Of a DNA stretch of 64,000 nucleotides, positions 4,598-44,800 are shown in pieces. This DNA comes from Hyalella azteca (taxonomy: Eukaryota; Arthropoda; Malacostraca; Amphipoda; Hyalellidae), in assembly GCF_000764305.2 (NCBI RefSeq), contig NW_025938085.1, positions 248,001 through 312,000 on the forward strand. The letters are read 5' to 3'. Each line of letters starts with the position of its first letter. Position 1 is the first letter of the stretch. A model generated the notes under the pieces. It was not told the DNA's origin, ran no database searches, and was given only the letters and a program-made list of their open reading frames with translations. The translations under genes and the position numbers were made by a program.

Positions 4598-4758
4598 GTT
4601 CGGACGGCAAGACTCAAGTTGAAGTACTCCTGGGCGTTTCGGAAGTGATGCGTGACAAGATCTTCACTGAAGAACAAGAGGAGAAAGGCATCGACGCGAA
4701 CACTCGAGATAAACTCGTCAGGACGTTTGTAGCGAATAACTACCACTACCATCTGCAG
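4598..4758 (+). CDS. Nlg: neuroligin, internal exon C
   Basis: This 161-nt exon completes a split Gly codon and encodes GSDGKTQVEVLLGVSEVMRD, then KIFTEEQEEKGIDANTRDKL and VRTFVANNYHYHLQ. It matches the neuroligin segment in which a V/ML-x-GV strand is followed by an acidic helix (EEQEEKGID) and the conserved RDKLVRTFVxNxYxYHL region of invertebrate family members. It enters in phase 1 and leaves in phase 0 at CTGCAG/GTGAGA, a consensus donor. The exon is GC-richer than its flanks. It reads straight into exon D (ELVLAITAEYTDW), which supports the splice choice. Confidence 0.93.
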
Positions 4759-6158: not shown

Positions 6159-6356
6159 GAGCTGGTGCTCGCGATCACAGCAGAGTACACCGACTGGGCG
6201 CGCCCCTCGCAACACCCGCTGGCCCTGCGCGACATGACCGCTGAGGCGCTACACGACGCGTCCCTTGTCGCCCCGGCGCTCACGGCAGCCAACAGCTTCA
6301 GCTCCGCTAAACGCAACACATTCTTCTACGTGCTCGACAACAGACCCAGAGATCAG
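6159..6356 (+). CDS. Nlg: neuroligin, internal exon D
   Basis: A 198-nt, phase 0-0 exon of 66 codons. It starts after CAATCCCAG and encodes ELVLAITAEYTDWARPSQHP, a strong neuroligin signature (NEYTDW followed by Q/HP), then LALRDMTAEALHDASLVAPA and a strand ending in NTFFYVLDNRPRDQ. The FFYVLD strand corresponds to the family's TFFYxF strand that precedes the conserved His loop. The donor is CAG/GTATCC, which is weaker than the other donors. Directly beyond it lies adapter-derived sequence and a minisatellite, and copies of this exon's last bases with their donor recur at 6,731-6,880. The next visible exon does not continue with the expected HGEELPY-type segment, so an exon seems to be missing between D and E. 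Confidence 0.93.
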
Positions 6357-6375
6357 GTATCCATTAATGCAACAC

Positions 6376-6410
6376 CTGTCTCTTATACACATCTAGATGT
6401 GTATAAGCAG
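6376..6410. other. Nextera mate-pair junction adapter (library artefact)
   Basis: CTGTCTCTTATACACATCT (Tn5 mosaic end, 6376-6394) is followed by its reverse complement AGATGTGTATAAG..CAG (6395-6410) with three bases missing. Two back-to-back mosaic ends are the circularisation junction of Nextera mate-pair libraries, not biology. Translation gives the SYTHLDVYK peptide known from contaminated protein models. Sequences on its two sides need not be neighbours in the genome. Confidence 0.95.
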
Positions 6411-6728
6411 CGGTCGGGGTGTTGGGTGAGTCCAAGCCAGCGGTCGGGGTGTTGGGGGAGTCCAAGCCAGCTGTCGGGGTGTTGGGTAAGTCCAAGCCAG
6501 CGGTCGGGTTGTTGGGTGAGTCCAAGCCAGCGGTCGGGGTGTTGGGGGAGTCCAATCCAGCGGTCGGGGTGTTGAGGGAGTCCAAGCCAGCGGTCGGGGT
6601 GTTGGGTAAATCCAAGCCAGCGGTCGGGGTGTTAGGGGAGTCCAAGTCAGCGGTCGGGGTGTTGGGTGAGTCCAAGCCAGCGGTCGGGGTGTTGGGGGAG
6701 TCCAAGCCAGCGGTCGGGGTGTTGGGTA
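6411..6728. repeat. minisatellite, 30-bp unit, about 10-11 copies
   Basis: Tandem copies of GTCGGGGTGTTGGGTGAGTC CAAGCCAGCG (30 bp) with GTGAG/GGGAG/GTAAG variants. A multiple-of-three period keeps frames open on both strands (repeats of VLGESKPAVG on + and LDSPNTPTAG on -), which explains the long frames here. It abuts the adapter junction on the left and duplicated exon D ends on the right, so copy number in the assembly is unreliable. Confidence 0.93.
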
Positions 6729-6890
6729 TCTTCTACGTGCTCGACAACAGACCCAGAGATCAGGAATCCATTAATGCAACACATTCTTCTACGTGCTCGA
6801 CAACAGACCCAGAGATCAGGTATGCATTAAAGCATCAGCTTCTTGCATGTGCTCGACAACAGACACAGAGATCAGGTATGCATTTTCCAC
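6729..6890 (+). pseudogene. three tandem copies of exon D 3' end with splice donor
   Basis: TTCTACGTGCTCGACAACAG plus ACCCAGAGATCAG, the last 33 bases of exon D, recurs at 6731 and 6787, and more diverged at about 6843, with a 56-bp period. The intronic bases after the donor are copied too (ATCCATTAATGCAACAC). Copy 1 has lost the donor (GAATCC for GTATCC); copies 2 and 3 keep GTATGC. The unit therefore spans exon end, donor and intron start. The copies lack an exon body and are not in a usable frame with one another, but copies 2 and 3 could act as decoy donors. Confidence 0.9.
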
Positions 6891-9342
6891 ATCACCCTTT
6901 ATGTATGTGCTAGACAAATCAACAAAGCGCTTATAAATGAATGTGCACACGTAATACTGAAGATTTTAATTTTAATTAAAAATGTCAGTCTGTTTTCTTA
7001 AATGATCAACGCCTTGAAAATTTTTAGAAACTTTGAATGATTGAAGAAATTCAATTTGTTTCTTAACCTAGCCATGACAATCAATAATTATACAATCGAA
7101 AAGACAGAACTGCGTATATCGGAGGCTCAATAAAGACATTGTATGCGATTGAATGGTACTAACCTGAAGAAATAACAATTCGATGCTTGAAGAGAATGGC
7201 TGGTGTAAGCCTTTGCGGGGAAATAAAAATATCTGCTTGAGTTGGAGCCAAGAGTTTCCTCGTCTCTGAAAGCAGCAATCTAAGAGTGCAATAAGAATTA
7301 GTGTCGCTCGCAGAAGGAAATTGTGTGGTCATGAAGTCTTTGCTAACAACCTTTTTGGACGTTTGGCGTCGATATTTGGCGAAGCCCTGCGCTCATAAAT
7401 AATGCCGACAACCATAGGGTTTTATCCCAGCTACGCCTCTCTGATGCAGATCTACGACGCGGTGGGTTCAGCTTGAAGTCATGCAACGTCTCGAGGTTAT
7501 GTGTTTGAATACGTGACATAATTCCCACAGCAAAAAAAAAATATATATATATGGAGGAAAAATGAAGGCATGGAAATTTTATTTGAATCACTACATAATT
7601 TTTCTTAGAAAACATCAGGTGAACTTGGATGGTAAAATTTTTATCATCTTCCAATTTTCAATAATTTTCAGCTGCAACCGACACTAATTAAAAGGTTGAA
7701 AATCATTTTCATAGAAGCCCTCAGCGAATAATCAACGATGTCGAACTCTTTTTTAGTAAATTAACAGGTGTAACATAAACGTATTGTATTATTCCATCGT
7801 TGTCTCACATTCGTCAAATCTCTGCAGGTGTTCATTAAAACGTATGTCTTGTTTAATTGGTTGTAATGTAATAGCCAGGATGCCGACCACACGGACAAAA
7901 GAATCGATGCTCCACCGTTGATTGGTCCTGACGGCGTAAATTACGAATGAATTAAAACGAACGGACTGCAATGAATCGGTCGCCCAATAATCTTTCAATG
8001 GGTTCGTGGCGCTGTCCCAACAATGGAAATTTTAACGGCTGTGTTCATGCATCTATTGTTACTCTAAATTGCAATGACATATGAAATTTATTGCATACAA
8101 TCAAGCTTCAACTATTGAATCTGAAACCTCAATACAAAAATGCAATTAGGGCAGATTGGGTTGAAAAATAATTGCTCGAACATGGATTTGATTTCGAATT
8201 TGTTTGTGTATCATATATTTCTTTAATGAGTGAGATGAAATATGGCGGCATTGTTTAGTGGAATATTCCAAATGTGAGAAGCAAAATATCCCTGACAACA
8301 TCTCTGCACAAAACGCGTCTGGAGAGACGGGATATTAAATGCAGAATTTATTACTTTTCTCGTCCCTACACGTGCGATCTCGCTTTATTTCTTTCCCCGA
8401 AAAATAAGCGCACCGTTGCCAAAATCCATTCTATTTTTGTTGCATCAGACCACGAGGCCATATCCGTGAATGGGAAGACTCGTCTATAGTCTCGTCAGCA
8501 TATTTTTAATCGATCTGCAGCATTGCGAGGGATTTTTGTTGGGACTCTTTTAATTGAGGACAACAGGTTCGACTAATTGTGTCCTTGTTAATTTCCGTGC
8601 CGTCACTCCTCAAATTGTCATTATTTAGTCCCTTTGATGATTTCATGCTTGTTAGAATTAAGGATAATTAGTGGTATGGTCACATCTTGAACTTACAGCA
8701 ACCAAGTGATTTCCACCGAAAATTTTCAGTACTTTCGAAAAAAAATTGATCATGTCATTTATTTATTGTCATTGCCTGTCAATGTAGAGTGACGTTTTTG
8801 TTCGCAGTAATCGCGACACTTCGAGATAAATTGATTATTTTTTGTCGCGCATCCAACCAAGAGTCAATACGGCAGCAATATATCTCTTCGAGATGGCTGA
8901 ACGAGATCGCTCTATTGCAAGCGATGAACAATAGAAGACGTGGCTGGCAAGCTCTCGCTTTTCAACGCGTGAGGAGCAGAAACGCGTGAAAGCAATGGGC
9001 TGGGGAGGGCAGACAAAAAACATCGAATAACACAAACGAAAAGGAAGCGTTTTACTCTCTATTTTTCAATTTGAATTCAATAGGAATCAATAAATGTGAG
9101 TAATTTCCTTGCTGTATTTCTTATATGTATTTGGAGAAGAGCGCCAGCTCTATTACCTAGCGACAAAATTTATTTTCCTTATTATCGATTCTAGTCTTCA
9201 AGAGTTCGTCATAAATTACAAGTAGATCCATCGATCACAGAATTGAGCTGTCAGAAGATTGATCTCTCAAACTTTTCCCGTTTAGACTTGGTCTTGCATA
9301 AATTGATGACGAAGTCTCATTTGTTTTATTGTCCAGTCTCAG
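6891..9342 (+). other. intron D-E, expected exon not found
   Basis: AT-rich intron ending in the acceptor CCAGTCTCAG (9333-9342). Neuroligins have about 20-25 residues between the FFYVLD strand and the AP-L start of the next exon, carrying HGEELPY-(V/I)-FG. I looked through both strands of this interval for such a segment and did not see one. Besides the SINE-like piece at about 7,380-7,553 I recognise nothing. Confidence 0.65.
7380..7553 (+). mobile_element. possible tRNA-derived SINE with A-rich tail
   Basis: A GC-richer island ends with a B-box-like GTTTGAATAC (about 7502-7511), then a short unique 3' part, ten A residues and an (AT)n tail. That layout is typical of a SINE inserted on the + strand. 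No clear A box was found, target-site duplications were not identified, and a family cannot be named. Confidence 0.3.
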
Positions 9343-9485
9343 GCACCTTTGACGGAGCTCGACTTGCTGCTTGGGAGTCCGCTGGGTGCCAACCATCCTC
9401 TCCAGCCGCCCAGGAACTATACAAAGCAAGACAAACTCTTGAGTGAAGTGGTCATTCAGCTGTGGGCCAACTTTGCCAGGACCGG
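9343..9485 (+). CDS. Nlg: neuroligin, internal exon E
   Basis: A 143-nt exon, phase 0 in and phase 2 out, with acceptor CTCAG/GCACC and donor ACCGG/GTGAGT. It encodes APLTELDLLLGSPLGANHPL and then QPPRNYTKQDKLLSEVVIQL followed by WANFARTG. APL, NYTKQD, LSEVV and W-x-NFA-(R/K)-TG are diagnostic of neuroligins, and the last is the conserved helix before the DPN loop. NYT is a potential N-glycosylation site. The APL normally follows HGEELPY-x-FG; that preceding part is absent from exon D, which points to a lost exon rather than a diverged one because phases still match (0 to 0). Confidence 0.93.
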
Positions 9486-11952: not shown

Positions 11953-12077
11953 GGACCCCAACGGCGTGGAGTACAACTCGAGTGCCGTGCCTGCCGCGGC
12001 CGACCACGACCGCTCCCAGTACCGCGCTACCTCGTGGGAGCCTTACGACATCGAACACAAGAAGTACCTCGAGCTTG
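11953..12077 (+). CDS. Nlg: neuroligin, internal exon F
   Basis: A 125-nt exon (phase 2 in, phase 1 out) encoding DPNGVEYNSSAVPAAADHDR, then SQYRATSWEPYDIEHKKYLE and LG. The DPN at the start directly follows FARTG of exon E, as in all neuroligins. W-x-PYD-x-x-x-(Q/K)-KYLEL is the C-terminal strand of the esterase-like fold before the stalk. NSS is a potential N-glycosylation site. Codon use is strongly GC-ending, in contrast to the AT-rich introns. The donor CTTG/GTAAGC is close to consensus. Confidence 0.93.
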
Positions 12078-12376
12078 GTAAGCTGCTGGTAACGTTCAAG
12101 ATAGAATAAAGAAATTGATTAATGGCTTAAAAATGAAAATCACTTTTCGTTGTACTGTTTTATTCCTCGTGTTACTTTATTTTAATTAGATTTTTTTTAA
12201 ATAAGTAAAATGCTTGACAGAAAAATAAATTTAAGTCCTGGGCATATATCCTAAACAAGTATTATGGAATATTATAAGCTACACCGAGTTCAATTCCTAA
12301 TTTATATTGGTTTATTTTCAGTCTACCCAAAATATTTGGAATTTACATTTATTTGAATTGCGTGTTATTGTAACAG
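12078..12376 (+). other. intron F-G
   Basis: A short 299-bp AT-rich GT-AG intron ending in TTGTAACAG. An open frame extends back through it from exon G to 12,307 but has no conserved residues, so it is not counted as coding. Confidence 0.8.
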
Positions 12377-13008
12377 GCCCAGGCAGGGGCAGAGTGCGTG
12401 ACCACTACAGGGCTCCTCAAGTGGCCCTCTGGACTTGGTTGTTGCCAGCCCTCGAGAAAGTGGGCTCAAGATTTGGTCCTGATTCATCTTTCCATGACGC
12501 ATACGCAAGTTCCGACTCATTTTCAGGGCCAACCCGACCTAGGGCTTTGCTTCCTTTAACTTCAACACGAACACCAACATTAAAAGATCCTCACCACCCA
12601 GATAGTGGCCTCAATAGCGACTTAAGTAACATGACGAACCCCACTATGAGCATCCACGATATGATGGATACCATCGAAGCCGTCCAGGTGACAGGCAAAG
12701 AGAGTTTTATGGATGATGTCCACTACACTACTGCGCTCAGCCTCACCGCAGCCTTGGGCATCTCTTTGCTACTGCTTAACATCCTGGTTTTGGCAGCATT
12801 CCATTACCGGAGAGGAGTGGCGTCTAAATCAGAAGGTCATAACTCAGGACGAAATAGAGGCCCTACTGCTGGGTCATCTCCGTCTCACTGCGAGACTCTC
12901 CCTTCCTCAGATACTTTACGATCCCTGGCTTGTCCTCAGGACTGGCCTCCAGACTACACGGTGTCGTCATGCGTGGACTCGGATCAAATTGCTTCCATGC
13001 ATCCATGA
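12377..13008 (+). CDS. Nlg: neuroligin, last exon G: stalk, TM helix, cytoplasmic tail, TGA stop
   Basis: The exon completes a split Gly codon and encodes PGRGRVRDHYRAPQVALWTW; RVRDHYRA is the neuroligin hallmark closing the esterase-like domain. A Ser/Thr/Pro-rich stalk follows (about 85 residues, with one NMT glycosylation site), then a hydrophobic helix TALSLTAALGISLLLLNILV-LAAF (12,727-12,801) and basic HYRR as stop-transfer signal. The intracellular part includes the family-type motif WPPDYTVSS. Reading stops at TGA 13,006-13,008 after SMHP. Neuroligin tails usually end in a PDZ ligand; this one does not, while the in-frame continuation does (see the readthrough entries). No strong splice donor (GTRAG) was seen between the TM helix and the stop, so this looks like the true terminal exon. 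Confidence 0.92.
12727..12804 (+). other. transmembrane segment of neuroligin
   Basis: About 24 hydrophobic residues (TALSLTAALGISLLLLNILV plus LAAF) are flanked by acidic DDVH on the outside and HYRR on the inside. This fits a type I single-pass orientation with the positive side in the cytoplasm. Confidence 0.9.
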
Positions 13009-13014
13009 CAATTA
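13006..13014 (+). promoter_or_regulatory. candidate stop-codon readthrough site TGA-CAATTA
   Basis: The neuroligin stop TGA is followed at once by CAATTA. This fits CAR-YYA, the 3' context known from tobamovirus replicase readthrough (there after UAG), which promotes readthrough in eukaryotic ribosomes. The same frame continues open to 13,446. Seen directly: the motif and the open frame. Inferred: that ribosomes use it. Confidence 0.5.
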
Positions 13015-13446
13015 CCTTTAGATTTGACGTTGCCGCCTGCGCCGGCTAATGTCCCCAGTCCTGTTTCCTCGTGGACAAGCACGACAGCGAACGTTATCGT
13101 CACAGTACAAAGTCCAGTTACATCACACGGGGTTTCAACTTTCAATAACAAGACGCAGTGCCACTTCGCTCATCATTCTCCACTTCTGCACAATCCACAA
13201 GAAAATAAGTCAAGCATTCAGTCGTGTCCTGTAGGAAATTTTTCTCTTCAACCAGTAAAGCATTCACAAATCAAAAAAATTCAGCAACAAGAGCACACAC
13301 AGCAACAGCAGCAAACACAACACGCACTCAAACGTCAGTCCGACAAAGCTCAAGAGTCTCAAGTTCAAACACCGCCCCTTACTTCTTCTCTCCCCGATCT
13401 CTATCCTGCTTCGTCATCGCCGAATTCACACCTCACATTCCTTTAG
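13009..13446 (+). CDS. in-frame C-terminal extension of neuroligin (putative readthrough product)
   Basis: Beyond the TGA the neuroligin frame is open for 145 codons to TAG at 13,444-13,446. The extension begins QLPLDLTLPPAPANVPSP, is rich in Pro, Ser, Thr and Gln (a short run of five Gln within EHTQQQQQTQ), has no hydrophobic helix, and would form a disordered cytoplasmic tail. It ends in SPNSHLTFL: T at -2 and L at 0 fit a class I PDZ ligand, the type that links neuroligin tails to PSD-95-like scaffolds. GC content stays nearer to exons than to the AT-rich flank until about 13,446. Alternatives: a TGA sequencing error or SNP, a cryptic splice using CTTTAG (13,021) or CCCCAG (13,058) as acceptor, or chance. 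Confidence 0.5.
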   Translation, partial: QLPLDLTLPPAPANVPSPVSSWTSTTANVIVTVQSPVTSHGVSTFNNKTQCHFAHHSPLLHNPQENKSSIQSCPVGNFSLQPVKHSQIKKIQQQEHTQQQQQTQHALKRQSDKAQESQVQTPPLTSSLPDLYPASSSPNSHLTFL

Positions 13447-14340
13447 TTATCCGCTGAAAGTTTCGTCTCGTTTGGCTAAATGTGTGTCTGTGATGACATT
13501 ATTATTACAAAGCAGTGTTTCTACACGCTATTGCGCAAGTGTTAATTTGCCAAGAACAAAAAAGCGTGTTCATCCGTGGCAGAAGCTGTTTTTCAACAGT
13601 CATTTATTGAGTACCTTGATTCGATAAGGTCGCGAAGCTCATATTTTTTACTTGGTTGAATCTTTCAACATATTGTACAGTGTACATACAAAACGTTCGT
13701 AAGAAATATGAGTGTAAATGTATTGTACATAGCCAAAGAGTTGGTCGACGAAAAAGTACTGAAAACTTATCTTTAATAACCTGATCATCGAATGTCAAAG
13801 TATTAAAAAATTTTCGCTCGTGATTGTTGTGAAATGATCAATTCATCCGCTGAGAAATGAAATGACTATTCATCCGAATTCATCCGCTGAAAAATGAAAT
13901 GGCTATTAGAAGTCAGATAGGCAGAGTGGTTAAGGTTTCGAAGGCCTCAAATTTATGAGGTTATAGTTTGATTGTAAATGTAAACCATGCAGTTATATTT
14001 TGCAGTGCAAAATTAAAATTTTTGTTAATTAGGATCAATCGACACTCCTATTCAAATTAATAACAGTTTAGAGAAAAATGTCATTCGTCGCTGTCAAGGG
14101 CATGGTCAGTCCCTTGCTTGGTTTGCATGGGCGTGTCAGGTTTGATACGCAATGTTTTTAATTTGAATTCTTAGCGTGCAATCCCAACTATTATAACTTT
14201 AAAACAATGACCAATAAGTCAAGCACAAAGTCGAAGAGTCCTGGAGGATTTAAATGTCAGAAAATAGGTTACCCGCATTCGTTCCTTTTTACGTTGCTTT
14301 TTTATTTTCGTATTTCTGATTTGATAGTTAATAAAACAAA
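13447..14340 (+). other. probable neuroligin 3' UTR
   Basis: AT-rich sequence after both possible stops. Candidate poly(A) signals are ATTAAA at 13,802-13,807 and AATAAA at 14,330-14,335; a further AATAAA lies at 14,963. A 31-bp near-identical direct duplication (AATTCATCCGCTGARAAATG and onward) occupies 13,840-13,870 and 13,877-13,907. The true transcript end cannot be fixed from sequence. Confidence 0.4.
13912..13992 (+). mobile_element. tRNA-derived SINE fragment or tRNA pseudogene (Ser/Leu-like)
   Basis: TAGGCAGAGTGGTTAAGG (about 13,918-13,935) closely matches the A-box/D-arm of class II tRNAs for Ser or Leu. A 5-bp stem CCTCA/TGAGG follows in the anticodon-arm position, and then a degenerate B box TAGTTTGATTG. 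The acceptor stem does not pair and the B box is damaged, so this is not a working tRNA. Confidence 0.45.
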
Positions 14341-17300
14341 ATCTTTCGGAAGCGGAGCGAAAAGAAAGCAAATAGGCCTCCATTTATATAAGATCCAGTT
14401 TCTGTCGAAATAATAAGTTGAGGCATTTGAACAAATTATAATGATTAATTACCACTTATGAACTTCCTTGAATTACCAGTACGTTAGTTTACGTTCCTAG
14501 CAGAAAATATCAAACATCACGTTGCTTTAGCATTCATCACAGAATTACTTGGTCTTCCATTATGCCGCTCTCGGAACCATTGCATTAGACTTGAATGGCT
14601 CACAATCAAATACAAAATTATCTTCCAGATTTTCATATGAAGACCATGCGGCGACACAACACAAAAAATTATGAAGTGATAGCTTCTGAGTTGTTATTCA
14701 TAGATTAAATTAACTACTTGTTATATTGATGGCAAAAACAATCAGTATCAATTATTAAAGTCAAAGAACTGTTATATGAAAATACCCATAAGAAGCCTCA
14801 TTACAGCTTCTCCGATTTGTCAATATCCCCTTTATTGGGCATGTAATAATGCTTGATTGTTGTTGACCTTTCATTCGTCTTTATGTGTAAGAAATTGATA
14901 CATGTGAGTCTAATTTTATTGTACACATACATTTTATCAATAGCATTTTGTTACCTCTTGTAAATAAAAAGATGTCGTTGACGACAAACGCAGCTCATTA
15001 GTTCAGCTAAATAATTATTCATGTCTAAATAGATGTGAGAGAGTGAACTTGATAAGCTTAAGATAGTTTTGCTATTTTCAATTTTAGGGAACTAGAAGTT
15101 TATGAAGTGAATAGTGTAACAGTAAATAATATGTGTAGTAATTTTATATACAATCTCAGTGCACCCACATCTAAAACGGTCTTTATTTTTCGCTCCAGGC
15201 TGCGAAAATTCACATAAATATTTTATAATCTTAGACTAATTATCAACATGACATAAAAAACAAAGTGAGCATAACATCGTTTGGAGTCTCAGAATTTATT
15301 TAAGAATATATTCTATGCTGAATTTGTTGTGCACTTAATTAAACGTTTGCAGCACGTGGAAAAAAATTTGCTTCTCTTTAATTTTAAATGCAAAAATATT
15401 TTTGAGTTGAAACGAACCTGTTTCATTTTTTACGTTGTGACTGATGATTGCTTTGTTCTCCGAACAAGTATCGAAGATTGACTGCAGCAAAGCCACGAAT
15501 CTGAAAATATTTCTTTTTCAAATGCGAGCTCAATTACGTTCAAGCTAAAGACCTGCAGTTACAGGCACTTTTGTTTAAACCCATTACTTTGCGGAACATT
15601 GGATACGAGAAGTTTTGATCGAGAAAAACCAGGAGGAAGTTAACTCTACATCTTTCTTTTTGCTATCAAAACGAGTGTTCCATGTAAATTTATTCGCAAA
15701 GAAATTGCTCTTTAAATTTTTGTTTGAAGTTGATGCATGTGCAATCAAATTTAAATGGCAAAAAGTCTTTTGTTTGAAAATTGAATTCGTGCTAAAAATT
15801 TAGATAAGAAGTTATAATTATTTAGAGACCAAATATTAGACTGAGTAATTAAGATGGCTAACTATAACTAACCGGACATTTTTGAATTAAGATCACTTGA
15901 TTGCTTAAATCTCAAGTTTATCAAGAACTTTATAGCAAAGAAAACAGCTAAAAAATTCACCATTGCTAATGCGAAAAAACGTTTTTTGACGCGAATTTCA
16001 GAGCTCCTGTATATTTTTAAGCAATATTTTAGTCTAAATGCAGCCTACAGTTCATATCCCCTCGAAATTGTAAATAGATAGGTTTGTTTGCTCATGTTTA
16101 CCTCATTATCATTTGTTTTCATTTGAAAAGTTATCTTTTATTACATTCAATGTGTATTTTAGTTTGCTACTTATTTATACTTGTGTTTTAGGTTTTTCAA
16201 CTGACGATGGAGCTGGACTCCAAAACGTTTTGTCGCATAAAAAATGGTGAACTTTTTGACTGTTTTCGTAGCTTTTAAAATCTTGATGAAAATTCTGGAA
16301 GAATAAGCAATCAATCGACAGATAAAATTCAAAACGGCGAAGAAACTTTTACGGCTAAAGTTACGTATGTATCGCGTTGAAGTTTAAGCGGGAAATGAGT
16401 TGTTAACCGTAGACAAAAATTCACTGTTGTACATATGCCAATAACAGAGTTTTTCAGAGAGTTTAATTGTTGTTAATTAGTTATTTGGTGTTTTACCACC
16501 GCATAACATTGATTAATGCAGAATGACTATTGCTCCGGATTCTTGAATCGTAATTAGAATTTTTTCTGAACCCATTTCACCGATTTCTCAAAAATTCAAT
16601 CGACGGTACAAAGTGTGTTATTTGAAGATATTCGAAGAGTTAGCATAGAAGCTAATTAGTTGTTTCAGTCTCGTCAATGCTGAATTTCAATTGCTAGAAT
16701 ATCTTTCAAGTTCGAATAAAATAATTTACCTAAGCGACAGCGACAGATGAGATGATTTATTTATTTGATAGTTTTATTTGCTCTTTGATTTTCTCGACAA
16801 AAATATTATATAACGCATAGGGTTGTAGAAGAGCTAATTTTAACCGTAGTTGAGGGAGCGGTGACTTAAAAAGTAATTTAACTCATTAAATTCGGTTAAA
16901 AGGAAATTATTAAATTCCATATGGATAAAACAATCTCAATTTTCAAGCCCAACATAGAATCATCTAATTGCATGAACAACAGAAAAATTATTTCGCAGAT
17001 AACGTTTTTGAGAGATAACTCATCACAAAAATGTGAATACATATTATTAGAGATAAATGAATGTCAAGAAAAATAAGTCAGGAATGCGAAGTGGATTCCC
17101 TTGTAATAAAAATGTTTACACCGCCTAATTTAAAAAAGATTTGATCCCATGTAAGATAATAATTAATGTGAAAGAACATGAAAGAATTCCGTTGCTAGTT
17201 TGTTCAAGTAAAATATATTTATTGATTTCACGATATCTTTAATTTTAGCGTAAGCTTTCTCTTCTGTAAAGTTCATCATTTCTTTTTTTATATAATCGAG

Positions 17301-23145: not shown

Positions 23146-23490
23146 GGCTGTATAATTGCTATTACCGGTTATTGCGATTACCGGTTATTGTTATTACCGG
23201 TTATTGCTATTACCGGTTATTGCTATTACCGGTTATTGCTGTCTCTTATACACATCTAGATGTGTATAAGAGACAGCGGTTATTGCTATTATTGCTATTA
23301 CCGGTTATTGCTATTACCGGTTATTGCTATTACCGGTTATTGCTATTACCGGTTATTGCTATTACTGGTTATTGCTATTACCGGTTATTGCTATTACCGG
23401 TTATTGCTATTACCGGTTATTGCTATTACCGGTTATTGCTATTACCGGTTATTGCTGTTACCGGTTATTGCTATTACCGGTTATTGCTAT
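23146..23490. repeat. minisatellite, 16-bp unit, about 19 copies, interrupted by adapter
   Basis: Tandem TTATTGCTATTACCGG with a few GCG, GTT and ACT variants. The 16-bp period makes the three forward frames read the same LLLPVIAITGYCYYR cycle, which explains overlapping hydrophobic frames. The array is broken by the adapter at 23,239-23,276, so its assembled length is not trustworthy. Confidence 0.95.
23239..23276. other. complete Nextera mate-pair junction adapter (library artefact)
   Basis: A perfect 38-bp palindromic junction: CTGTCTCTTATACACATCT (23,239-23,257) and AGATGTGTATAAGAGACAG (23,258-23,276). Two Tn5 mosaic ends back to back are the circularisation linker of the library kit. 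It shows that gap filling used untrimmed mate-pair reads. Confidence 0.97.
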
Positions 23491-39700: not shown

Positions 39701-41320
39701 TTATTTGGTTTTGCCTTTGAAATTGAGTTGGATATTTGATTCTGACCCACTTAGTTAATTTATTGCTTCTTTAACTGCAATGAGGCCTCATTTGGTCGTT
39801 TAAAGTTCGTAAGTTTCAGTGTAGCGCAGAGATGTTATCTGTGAGCTTTACGGCGGTAGCCGCTACGAAGCGTCGGCTAAAAGTAGCCATTCAGCCGCTC
39901 TTGTTTGAATCTACGGCTTTCTGAAAGATTAGGCCAGTGGTTTTTTTTTATCTTGTGCGTGGCTTTGAATATCTTATTCGGAATTTCATCCCAAATAGAA
40001 ACTCCGAGTTAGAAAAGGAAGTCAGTGTTTTCTTTGTTTGTCATAGATTGATATTTATTGAAGAAAATTTAAATAGGCATTTTTCAACACCATGATAGCA
40101 AATTGTGTATATATGAAAGAAATATTTTTAAATTCACTTTATTGGGATTTTTCGGAGCTCTAACTTGAGGCTTTGAAGTGATTTTAAACTTCAATAAATC
40201 TTTGAATATCGAAGAAAATTCGTAAAATAAATTCACTAGATTAAGTAATCAAATAACGTTAACGTCACGTGAGCGCCCGGAAAACTGCATTATTTATCAG
40301 AATTTCCTTCCTCAGATATAGTTTAGGCTTTCTCGTTTTTCCTTGATCCTTGGGATGTTAGAATAATACAACAGAGGCGTTACCTTAAATGCAGACTAGT
40401 TGCGAAATTCAACTCCCTTAGAAAGCAAGCGCACGCTACAACACTGCGCATACATTCCTTTGTCGCCATTTGTATCTATTGGGCGTACAAACGACGCAAT
40501 CAATTCCTGTCGCTTACTTGAACTCCAGCCGAGCTCGAGAGAATCGTACGAAAGCTGCCATGCAGGCAACCTTGAATTGGCTTTCCACTGTCGCAATTCC
40601 GAACTTAGACATTAGAGGATCCGTGTACAGGAATTCTAGTAGGTACGACAAATTCTAATTCATTGTTTCTCAATTTTTATTTAAAGAGACAAAACATGTG
40701 CTCTTTCTTCTGCAGTTTATCCATATATCGTTTTTTTATTCTTTTATTCCTTTTATCAAGTTCCCCTATAGAAATATTAGGATATAACATAAAAATGTTT
40801 GGATGGAAATCCCAAAACAAAGCCTTGTAACTTGAAAGAACATTCCAAATATTTTAATTTTCAGTTACGGATATCAATAAACTAAGATGTAATATTTTCG
40901 CAAATCTCGTAGAATTTCAATCATTCTGAAGGTAATGACCCATAACATCCATAAACAAACATTTCCTCATTTCCCCTTTAACTCAGTACTATAAAAAATA
41001 TAATTTTATTATAAAATTTAAGATTTATAATACAATATCAAATGCTTACCTCTTTTGATGTATAATTTGATCTCAAATGCCTCCAATCTGTATGAAATAC
41101 TGGCCACCAACTATCAGGTTTCCGTCCCCAGTCTAATACTAGCAGTTGTCAATCGAGCAAGACTTGGTCTGTCAGCTGACTGGGCTTCAGTGTTCCGTTG
41201 CGATGCAGCGCTGTTTAAAGGCATCGGGCGCCTGCCGTGAACAAGACCATTCAGGCAATAGACATGGCATGCTTCGATAACCAGGAGGCTGATCCTGCTA
41301 CTGACATGGCGCATGCTCGC
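36707..41320. other. intergenic, no gene recognised
   Basis: AT-rich with GC-richer spots near 38,570-38,740, 39,550-39,650 and 40,400-40,600. The frames there show no domain or motif and no consistent splice signals. Confidence 0.55.
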
Positions 41321-41324
41321 TCTG

Positions 41325-41805
41325 CTCACATGCAGTCTCTGTAGGGACCGGTGCTCGCTCAGCTCCCAAGCTGTCTCTGTAAATACCGGTGCTCGCTCTG
41401 CACCCATGCAGTCTCTGTAGATACCGGTGCTCGCTCTGCACCCATGCAGTCTCTGTAGATACCGGTGCTCGCTCTGCTCAACTGTCTCTGTAAATACCGG
41501 TGCTCGCTCTGCACCCATGCAGTCTCTGTAGATACCGGTGCTCGCTCTGCACCCATGCAGTCTCTGTAGATACCGGTGCTCGCTCTGCTCCCATGCAGTC
41601 TCTGTAGATACCGGTGCTCGCTCTGCTCCCATGCTGTCTCTGGGTATCGGTGCTCGCTCTGCACCCATGCAGTCTCTGTAGGGACCGGTGCTCGCTCTGC
41701 TCCCATGCAGTCTCTGTAGGGACCGGTGCTCGCTCTGCGCCCATGTCGTCTCTGTGGGAACTGTTTCTCCCACTATGATCATGCAGTCTCTGTAGGGACC
41801 GTTTC
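41325..41805. repeat. minisatellite, 38-bp unit, about 12 copies
   Basis: Tandem TGCAGTCTCTGTAGATACCG GTGCTCGCTCTGCACCCA, with GTAGGGACC variants at the right and two units shortened. Because 38 is not a multiple of three, the minus frames all cycle through the same peptides and produce a 251-residue open frame (41,114-41,869, minus). That is a by-product of the array. Confidence 0.95.
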
Positions 41806-44800
41806 TAAACAACACCCATGGCGGCTGTATATGAGAGAAAACTTGATTCGAATTCAACTTATGACCCACGAAGACAATATAATATTTACAAGTGAATTTT
41901 CAGCCTATTATTTGTTTGCCAAAACTAAACGAATAAATCGTGATGAGACATTTTTGGATGTGCATGTGGTGAGGTAAATGCATGGACTGATGAAGACCAG
42001 CATAAAAGTAGCTAAATTTTAATTGAACGAAATAATTTTATTCTCTATATTCGTAGTGTTCGATTCAAAAAGTATTATGACTCAAATATAAGAACTGCCG
42101 AGAACCGACCCCACAAAACATGGGAATAATATTTTTAAAAATTCACTCTTTTTGGAAGGAAATAAGAGCAATATTTCGCGAATTATACATGAGTCATAAC
42201 AATATTTCTTCCATGTTCACATATATATTTCATTTTCAGGTAATTATTTACTCTACAAATTTTGTCCTCAACGAAACATTACTTTGCACAAATTCCCAAG
42301 CATCCTACGCTTGCAGGCCACATAGCGATGCCCTGTTGATGACAAATAAACCCAGAGGGACCAACATCGCTCCTCCGCAAACAAGCTGAGCATCAAAGGG
42401 GATGCCTCTAATAAGATGTCACACGTTCATCAGTCGCCTCCTAATTGCTGTGTAGGCTTAGCTGCTCTTTGAACGCTTGACGGTTTAACGCGAGCTGTCA
42501 TCAGCATCCACGTGCCTTGACTGATCTTGTATCAGCAAAATTATTTATAATATAACCGCTAGCTTAGTGATATGCTACGTTGTAGCTCAAAAATGACATG
42601 AGACGAATGAATAGTTTTTGTACGTTGACCTCATAGCCCCAAGTCGGCAATCGATAAATAAATTTGTAAATAAAAATTTCAATGACACTAGATATTTTAT
42701 TAATTTTCATGATCCAAAAATATTTGAATATGCTAAAAATTCGGTAACTGTGACTGAATAAATTTGAAAAGAAAGATTTTGTTGTTTGAAAGTGACCTTG
42801 AAAAATTTATTCCCTATACAGATAACAGATCATCTGTGTAGAAAACGATAATAAAACACGAAATATACAAAATGTGCAGAAATCGGTTTCATAATCCTTT
42901 TTCGAATAAATAATCGATTTCACTTAGCGAACGTAAATCATCTAGCAAAAGAAAAATGATTTTCAGACGTGACTTCATACCGCTGAGCCGGAATCTTGAT
43001 GAAAAGTGATGAAAATATTATTTAAAAAAAATAGAACTCTTGATGATCATTTCAGCTTGACGATAAAAAATAACAATAAATTTCTTCCATTTCAATATTT
43101 TTCCGATCAAATATTTTATGGGAAGTTACGTTTCCAGAGAATAATACTGCTTTCACTTTTGACATAAATCGAATTCAGCTGTTCTATAGCACAATAGTCG
43201 TCGAAATACGTCAACATCAAGGATGACCATTGATTGGTGGAGCATCAAAGTTACAACTGTAGAGATTCAAAGTATTACAGATTGAATTCTATATCACCAA
43301 CGACTGTTTCGTTAAATTGCCAGATATGCTCATACTAAGGAAAGAAAAAAACGGATAGATAGTTTTCAAAAGAGAGCTATGAATATGGATAGATTCGTTC
43401 CGACTCGGATAATATGTTGGCCTTTGAATACCAAAGATAAACGGCATGGATGCGCGTTGATGGAATTCACGGACGGCAATGCTTCACATGCCATCGCTCC
43501 ATCAATCATACAGGCTGTCAAATGGCACCGGTATATCGGACCTCACTGCGTCGCGGTTTGAATTCTTCGAAATGGGTTTAGGATTGTAGTGACACGAATT
43601 TCTGATTAACTTGAAGCGAATATGCAGCGTTCGGATGGTTGGGCGTCGATCGAATGGTAGCTGGCCAAGTAAGTGACTAATCGGGTTAAGGATTTCTAAT
43701 TAAAGTATTGTTGGCGCTGGATCTACCTGAGCCGTTTTAGAGTACACCATAGAGCACTGCCGCATATTAATTTTTTTACCTACATTATATATTAACATTT
43801 ATGACTTGACGCTAGCAATTGAACTGATGATCGCCAGTAAACGTAATTTTCACAAGTAATCCTGGATTCTAGGAATATGTCGTTGTCGATCTTTTTCACC
43901 GACTCCGATGCTCAATCCAATGATATAAATGTTCTGTGACATTTACATCATTGGAATGATATAAATGAATAAAATTATATAAATGATCGTAGAATTTCTC
44001 AATGCGCGAAACTGCGCCTCTACAAATTATCACGTTGATGTATCATTATTACAGCAAAAAACAATTTTTATGACTGAATTTAAAGCACTTAATTATTGAA
44101 AAAATGACGAAGTGAATTGATAAAGATGTTCATAGAAAATTTCAAATTCCTTTCGTTTCTTACCGAAGCTTAAATTGAAATTTGAACGCCTGCGATCATT
44201 AAACAGTCTGTACATCCGCCTAAAACTTTTCATTCCAGGCTCATTTTGGTGAAATAATTCTGATTTTGCATCATTCGCATTCCGATGCTAAGTAGAACCA
44301 TTAGCCCGAGCACTCAGCTCATTGCCTCTGCTAAAGCACTTGATGCATCAGATCATCAGGAATCGACGCTCAAACTCAGAAAAACGGCAGTTTTAAAAGC
44401 CGGCAAAAAAACTGCAGCGGATTGACACTTCGAATGAAGTGCGAGTAAAAAAAACATCCTATCAAATTGAATCGCTGGAATAGAAGAGCCTTTGGCCAAA
44501 GTTTTTAGATGACCTCATTAGGTAGATTTTTCTAGGTTTCGTGGATGCGAAACCGTAGATAAGTAGACGTTTCAATTCTCATTTATTGAAATCATGGAAA
44601 TTAATTTATCCAATTTGTGTTATATGCGTGATCTAGTTAAATGGAACAACATTATTTAATTTTAAGTATAGTGTTAGGCTCTCGTTTCAGTTTGACAATG
44701 TGTTTTTTTTGCTCGCCTACTCGCTTACGGCAGATTTTGACTAATTCGCTATCACAACATCCGAAGCTATCTTCGATTTTTCACCAATTATAATAGTCAC

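Follow-up and report, generated by a model that had tools for sequence, protein, structure and literature searches.

Programmed readthrough of the TGA stop codon at positions 13006 to 13008 best explains the 3' end of a neuroligin gene on the + strand of the window, the 64,000-nucleotide stretch of DNA that was analyzed here, and we put the probability of this reading at roughly 0.68. A preliminary description of this DNA had proposed that readthrough of this stop produces a minority receptor with a longer tail. Of this proposal, readthrough itself is supported by the exact CAATTA context of the stop codon, by an end of the short protein that two relatives share, and by an in-frame coding signature in the extension, with an in-frame splice as a rival to it. 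The window neuroligin probably adds a further case to a phenomenon already known, stop codon readthrough.

The window is part of a 519-Mb eukaryote assembly and contains the 3' part of the neuroligin gene, with seven exons that matched crustacean neuroligins by tblastn between 1384 and 13008. The joined exons matched Pfam COesterase (PF00135; E 2e-39), corresponding to a carboxylesterase-like ectodomain, and the best solved chains for them were neuroligins. A membrane helix and a conserved juxtamembrane tail are also present, with YTTALSLTAALGISLLLLNILVLAAFHYRR aligning to neuroligins. Among named proteins, those nearest to the last exon belong to lobsters, crayfish, and shrimps, so the animal is, by this measure, crustacean-like. 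The first six exons below were defined by tblastn with crustacean neuroligins and by splice sites, and the seventh by tblastn and by the same end residues in two relatives.

1384 to 1583, + strand: neuroligin exon, esterase-like domain, SGSGLFRRVVLMSGTALSPWAL...
2217 to 2313, + strand: neuroligin exon
4598 to 4758, + strand: neuroligin exon
6159 to 6356, + strand: neuroligin exon, ELVLAITAEYTDWARP...
9337 to 9485, + strand: neuroligin exon
11953 to 12077, + strand: neuroligin exon, the weakest match (E 0.001)
12377 to 13005, + strand: last coding exon of the short form, with the end of the esterase-like domain, stalk, membrane helix, and cytoplasmic tail to SMHP

The last exon ends in ...SCVDSDQIASMHP, followed by TGA and then by CAATTA. 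The stop codon, the hexamer, the 145 sense codons, and the second stop were all found where they had been described, as were the peptide ends, SMHP for the short form and HLTFL for the long form.

13006 to 13008, + strand: TGA stop codon, readthrough candidate (from the sequence and from the end common to relatives P0001 and P0002)
13009 to 13014, + strand: CAATTA, fitting the CAR-YYA readthrough hexamer (hexamer role from PMC3609751, in excerpt)
13009 to 13443, + strand: 145-codon in-frame extension, with no ATG, rich in S, Q, and P, ending HLTFL (from the sequence, a coding signature, and a single genome match)
13026 to 13053, + strand: possible RNA hairpin starting 17 nt 3' of the TGA (weak)
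13237 to 13255, + strand: possible 3' splice site within the extension, next base 13256 (score 11.0; in frame with the exon ending at 12077)
13306 to 13313, + strand: 8-mer CAGCAGCA within the extension, enriched in fly and mosquito readthrough genes (PMC5100048, in excerpt)
13435 to 13443, + strand: T-F-L end of the long form, fitting the class I PDZ ligand pattern (about 5% by chance)
13444 to 13446, + strand: TAG, second stop (from the sequence)

In the window, counting both strands and all frames, CARYYA hexamers are found after 12 of the 7747 stop trinucleotides and after 4 of the 2790 TGAs, the neuroligin TGA included. CAATTA is a tobamovirus-type signal, and the TGA-CAATTA of Drosophila bi gave readthrough of 37.7% in psi- yeast and 95.9% in PSI+ yeast (PMC3609751, in excerpt), in line with the promoting role that the preliminary description had assigned to the hexamer. 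TGA-CAATTA thus has the leaky stop and the context of known readthrough genes. The possible hairpin downstream was assessed against six control stretches, with a modest outcome that varied with the stretch chosen (z of -2.2 in a 50-nt, -2.1 in a 60-nt, and -0.6 in a 100-nt stretch), and gives weak support.

The position of the stop appears to be conserved in two relatives. These, the closest sequences in the protein database, P0001 and P0002 (76 to 77% identical), both end at SMHP, with the ends ...SCIESDRMSSMHP and ...SCVDSEQLSSMHP, respectively. Because these proteins are encoded on contigs of 4494 and 10334 bases, both genes most likely meet a stop codon at that place, which suggests that termination at SMHP is common to a clade. 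A base or assembly error at the TGA appears unlikely, since both proteins end at the same residues.

The length of the extension was then compared with chance. The probability of 145 open codons, which had been given as about 0.1% with uniform codons, was 3.8e-5 at the base composition of the window and 6e-5 when the window was modeled as a first-order Markov chain; with the composition of the extension itself it was 1.8e-3 (mononucleotide) or as much as 0.048 (dinucleotide). With a chance of up to about 5% at its own composition, length alone is not decisive, granted the C-rich composition. The window holds 39 open stretches of at least 100 codons and 6 of at least 145 codons, the extension and the last neuroligin exon included. 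Frame 0 is the sole open frame of the six in the extension, the others carrying 3 to 10 stops, and the GC fraction drops from 0.46 to 0.35 past the second stop. The 145 residues include 21 S, 20 Q, and 16 P but only 1 R. Because the extension lacks an in-frame ATG, reinitiation at an AUG cannot explain it. A protein search of the genome returned one match only, so the extension does not look repeat derived. Elsewhere in the window, repeat-like open frames as long as real exons occur at 6364 to 6913 and 41114 to 41899; those at 6.4 to 6.9 kb have a strong period-3 bias, a caution for arguments from open reading frame length in this genome.

Codon-position bias in the extension reached a chi2 of 26.4. 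Among simulated sequences that were open, 2 of 2786 attained this value under a first-order model and 1 of 5288 under a second-order one, and the bias persisted without the glutamine run (p 0.003, of 2662). As a measure, it is imperfect, since the real last exon reaches only 10.6 and 4 of the 39 open stretches of the window outscore the extension, 3 of them in the 6.4- to 6.9-kb repeat. Codon usage was scored with three training sets. For the set of six same-genome neuroligin stretches (1919 codons), frame 0 was the best of six, no Markov sequence (0/1000) or base shuffle (0/2000) scored as high, and the score was positive in every quarter of the extension, including the first 36 codons. When the two Q-rich paralogues were removed from the same-genome stretches, the score fell to about zero (-0.003), yet frame 0 was still the best of six and only 3 of 1000 simulations were as high. 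The smallest set, the last exon of the window alone (208 codons), gave no signal; frame 0 was not the best, and 662 of 1000 simulations were as high. A coding signature in the frame of the first open reading frame is thus present with two of the three training sets and absent with the other, and by this single-genome signature, the extension looks translated.

Translation of the extension, or of part of it, from an alternative splice form in which an intron removes the TGA would require no readthrough; we consider this unlikely, although it is the main rival. In the likeliest version, the exon that ends at 12077 is spliced to the acceptor before 13256, and the resulting form would be soluble and lack the membrane helix. 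With generic scoring matrices, this acceptor reached 11.0, compared with -3.0 to 10.6 for the real acceptors of the gene. Its frame matches that of the real donor after 12077 (7.4), and there are weaker in-frame acceptors before 13022, 13106, and 13235. However, this splice would leave the first 82 codons untranslated, yet the codon-usage signal is clearest in codons 1 to 36 (0.098 per codon) and 37 to 72 (0.078 per codon). Within the last exon, donors in phase with 13256 score no higher than 2.8, against 4.9 to 11.2 for the six real donors, and the best last-exon donor (12688, 7.1) has in-frame acceptors of at most 2.1. Under splicing, moreover, the CAATTA context would be a coincidence. A search for an alternative tail exon further downstream gave no convincing candidate in the 40 best tblastn matches of the window, and its + strand showed no tail motif.

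The extension could also be the remnant of an older, longer tail that has gone untranslated since the TGA arose, a quite unlikely history. P0003, P0004, P0017, and P0022 have similar juxtamembrane tails with 147 to 311 residues after WPPEY, and an ancestor may therefore have had a long tail. Against this, the end common to P0001 and P0002 indicates that the stop is not recent, unless the species are very close. In simulated neutral decay (600 runs per level, with redraws giving the same base counted), 5% of extensions still had no stop after 0.2 base redraws per site, and 0.5% after 0.4. No true homology was found between the extension and these long tails. A wider comparison drew on 30 database proteins, of which 21 had a tail that could be used, with P0001 and P0002 (which end too soon) and P0025 to P0031 (seven proteins without the tail motif) left out, and none of the 21 tails showed convincing homology to the extension; those of more distant relatives resemble it mainly in Q-richness. 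The P0022 tail, as a candidate homologue, was equaled by 0 of 300 plain shuffles but by 27 of 300 local shuffles, the similarity being driven by Q runs, and the P0023 tail by 1 of 300 in both shuffle types; given the 21 comparisons, neither is taken as a homologue. The only Pfam match of the extension, a weak one to eIF3h_C (E 0.016), fell below the cutoff. In a search for DNA of relatives, no match was found among viral contigs.

The extension is very unlikely to be open by chance alone within a C-rich 3' untranslated region. Openness at its own dinucleotide composition (about 5%) and the training set without signal are compatible with chance, as is the protein search, in which none of 12 candidate homologues reached an E value of 0.001 or better; this negative result is weak because the window's own extension is absent from the same database. 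The codon-position bias and two of the three codon-usage tests nevertheless persist after conditioning on composition, and the CARYYA context has a chance of its own of 12/7747.

Rfam includes models of SECIS elements. We give hardly any credence to the idea that the TGA encodes selenocysteine or is itself an assembly error: the assembly is not error-free, with apparent Nextera adapter remnants elsewhere, but two relatives end at the same place, and neither a SECIS element nor any other Rfam family was matched in 12000 to 16500 at E values up to 1. Exact copies of AGATGTGTATAAGAGACAG, which we take to be the Nextera transposon end, occur in the assembly at 6376 to 6394, just after a neuroligin exon, and as an inverted pair at 23239 to 23276; they are probably adapter remnants.

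Drosophila melanogaster bi is a different gene, not known to encode a synaptic adhesion receptor. As an arthropod readthrough candidate, it shares with the window neuroligin the same stop codon and the same six bases after it, but it was picked on comparative evidence (PMC3609751, in excerpt), whereas the neuroligin candidate comes from a single genome. Most insects, and the sole crustacean tested, have abundant readthrough (PMC5100048, in excerpt), as the preliminary description had held for arthropods. The Anopheles and Drosophila readthrough genes of that study resemble the neuroligin in having an in-frame second open reading frame and CAGCAGCA in the extension, an 8-mer carried by 35.3% of the readthrough regions in flies and 23.5% of those in mosquitoes; their extensions diverge fast, and they were called from many aligned genomes rather than from one. 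Disorder and a high content of P, Q, R, H, and S characterize the readthrough extensions of flies (PMC4999894, in excerpt). Drosophila Dfr/Vvl has a similarly long, disordered, and Q-rich extension, but it is a transcription factor with a UAG stop, and its extension was shown by mass spectrometry and antibody (PMC8417969, in excerpt). Mammalian AQP4ex, like the proposed long form, is a membrane protein whose readthrough tail matters for anchoring; its extension is only 29 residues long, and in AQP4 the PDZ ligand, SSV, ends the short form, the reverse of the proposal for neuroligin (PMC6444679, in excerpt). The words neuroligin, nlg, and PDZ are absent from the main text of PMC5100048, and on readthrough, the available portion of PMC8387733 cites readthrough acetylcholinesterase only. 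Consistent with the earlier claim of novelty, no description of neuroligin stop codon readthrough was found in the literature searched, subscription papers and supplements lying outside its scope.

The preliminary description had also held that the long form can be anchored at synaptic scaffolds by a PDZ ligand. The very end of the long form, T-F-L, does match the class I pattern [S/T]-x-hydrophobic. The claim is nevertheless weak, since about 5% of random ends with the composition of the extension would also fit; scaffold anchoring of a minority long form through this predicted ligand is only possible. All five honeybee neuroligins, which like the window protein have an esterase-like domain, a membrane helix, and a cytoplasmic tail, end in RV, in contrast to SMHP in the short form and TFL in the long form (PMC2570956, in excerpt). 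The C-terminal RV PDZ ligand is absent from both window forms. An RV end was present in 5 of the 25 relatives listed (with HV in 4 more) and in 2 of 8 loci of the genome, and because it is this rare, its absence does not exclude the gene as a neuroligin.

Searching the genome with the last exon and the extension identified eight contigs with neuroligin-like sequence. The open codons after the first stop numbered 145 in the window, 290 in C1422, 18 in C1356, 11 in C179, 10 in C4260, and 0 in C3617, with 4 in C1597 and 8 in C4282, where the end of the open reading frame may differ from the true end of the gene. The C1597 (L008) and C4282 (L013) sequences are near-identical by eye and represent two copies of a single neuroligin-like gene, which are either haplotypes left uncollapsed or the product of a recent duplication. 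The C179 paralogue (L012) ends GELRV at a TAG-CGC stop, with C after the stop, before its 11-codon second open frame.

In C1422, the first neuroligin open reading frame ends in ELRV at TGA-TGG, a context that is not CARYYA, and is followed by 290 in-frame sense codons (L010:2071-2943). The chance of this many open codons at their own base composition is 3e-7, none of 60000 simulated sequences was open under each of two models, and codon usage favored frame 0 with all three training sets (0, 2, and 20 of 1000). The C1422 extension had one match only in a protein search of the genome, and it showed no similarity to the window extension. These open codons could be explained by readthrough or by an in-frame intron, and an intron with its donor at L010:1719 and its acceptor at 2169 or 2247 is a fair alternative. 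Taking the two genes together, readthrough as a switch on neuroligin tails in this arthropod lineage is a tentative and rather improbable generalization. Under such a switch, readthrough would be the only way for the window neuroligin to gain its long tail and possible PDZ ligand, and C1422 would bury its exposed ELRV end under up to 290 added residues. If so, translation termination, not splicing, would set the number of synaptic receptors with a scaffold-binding end.

For the window neuroligin itself, programmed readthrough would work as follows. The TGA would be programmed to leak, so that most ribosomes terminate at SMHP and yield a receptor with a short cytoplasmic tail, while a fraction, aided by the downstream CAAUUA, decode UGA as an amino acid and add a 145-residue tail rich in S, Q, and P that is probably disordered. 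We infer both the occurrence of readthrough and its level, as well as the extra cytoplasmic contacts that the tail would give the long form, with scaffold binding via T-F-L as one option. If this is true, the leakiness of ribosomes would give a core trans-synaptic receptor two tail forms. The abundant and mostly unexplained readthrough of insects and crustaceans would then be tied to a protein whose job is well studied, through a tail switch open to direct testing.
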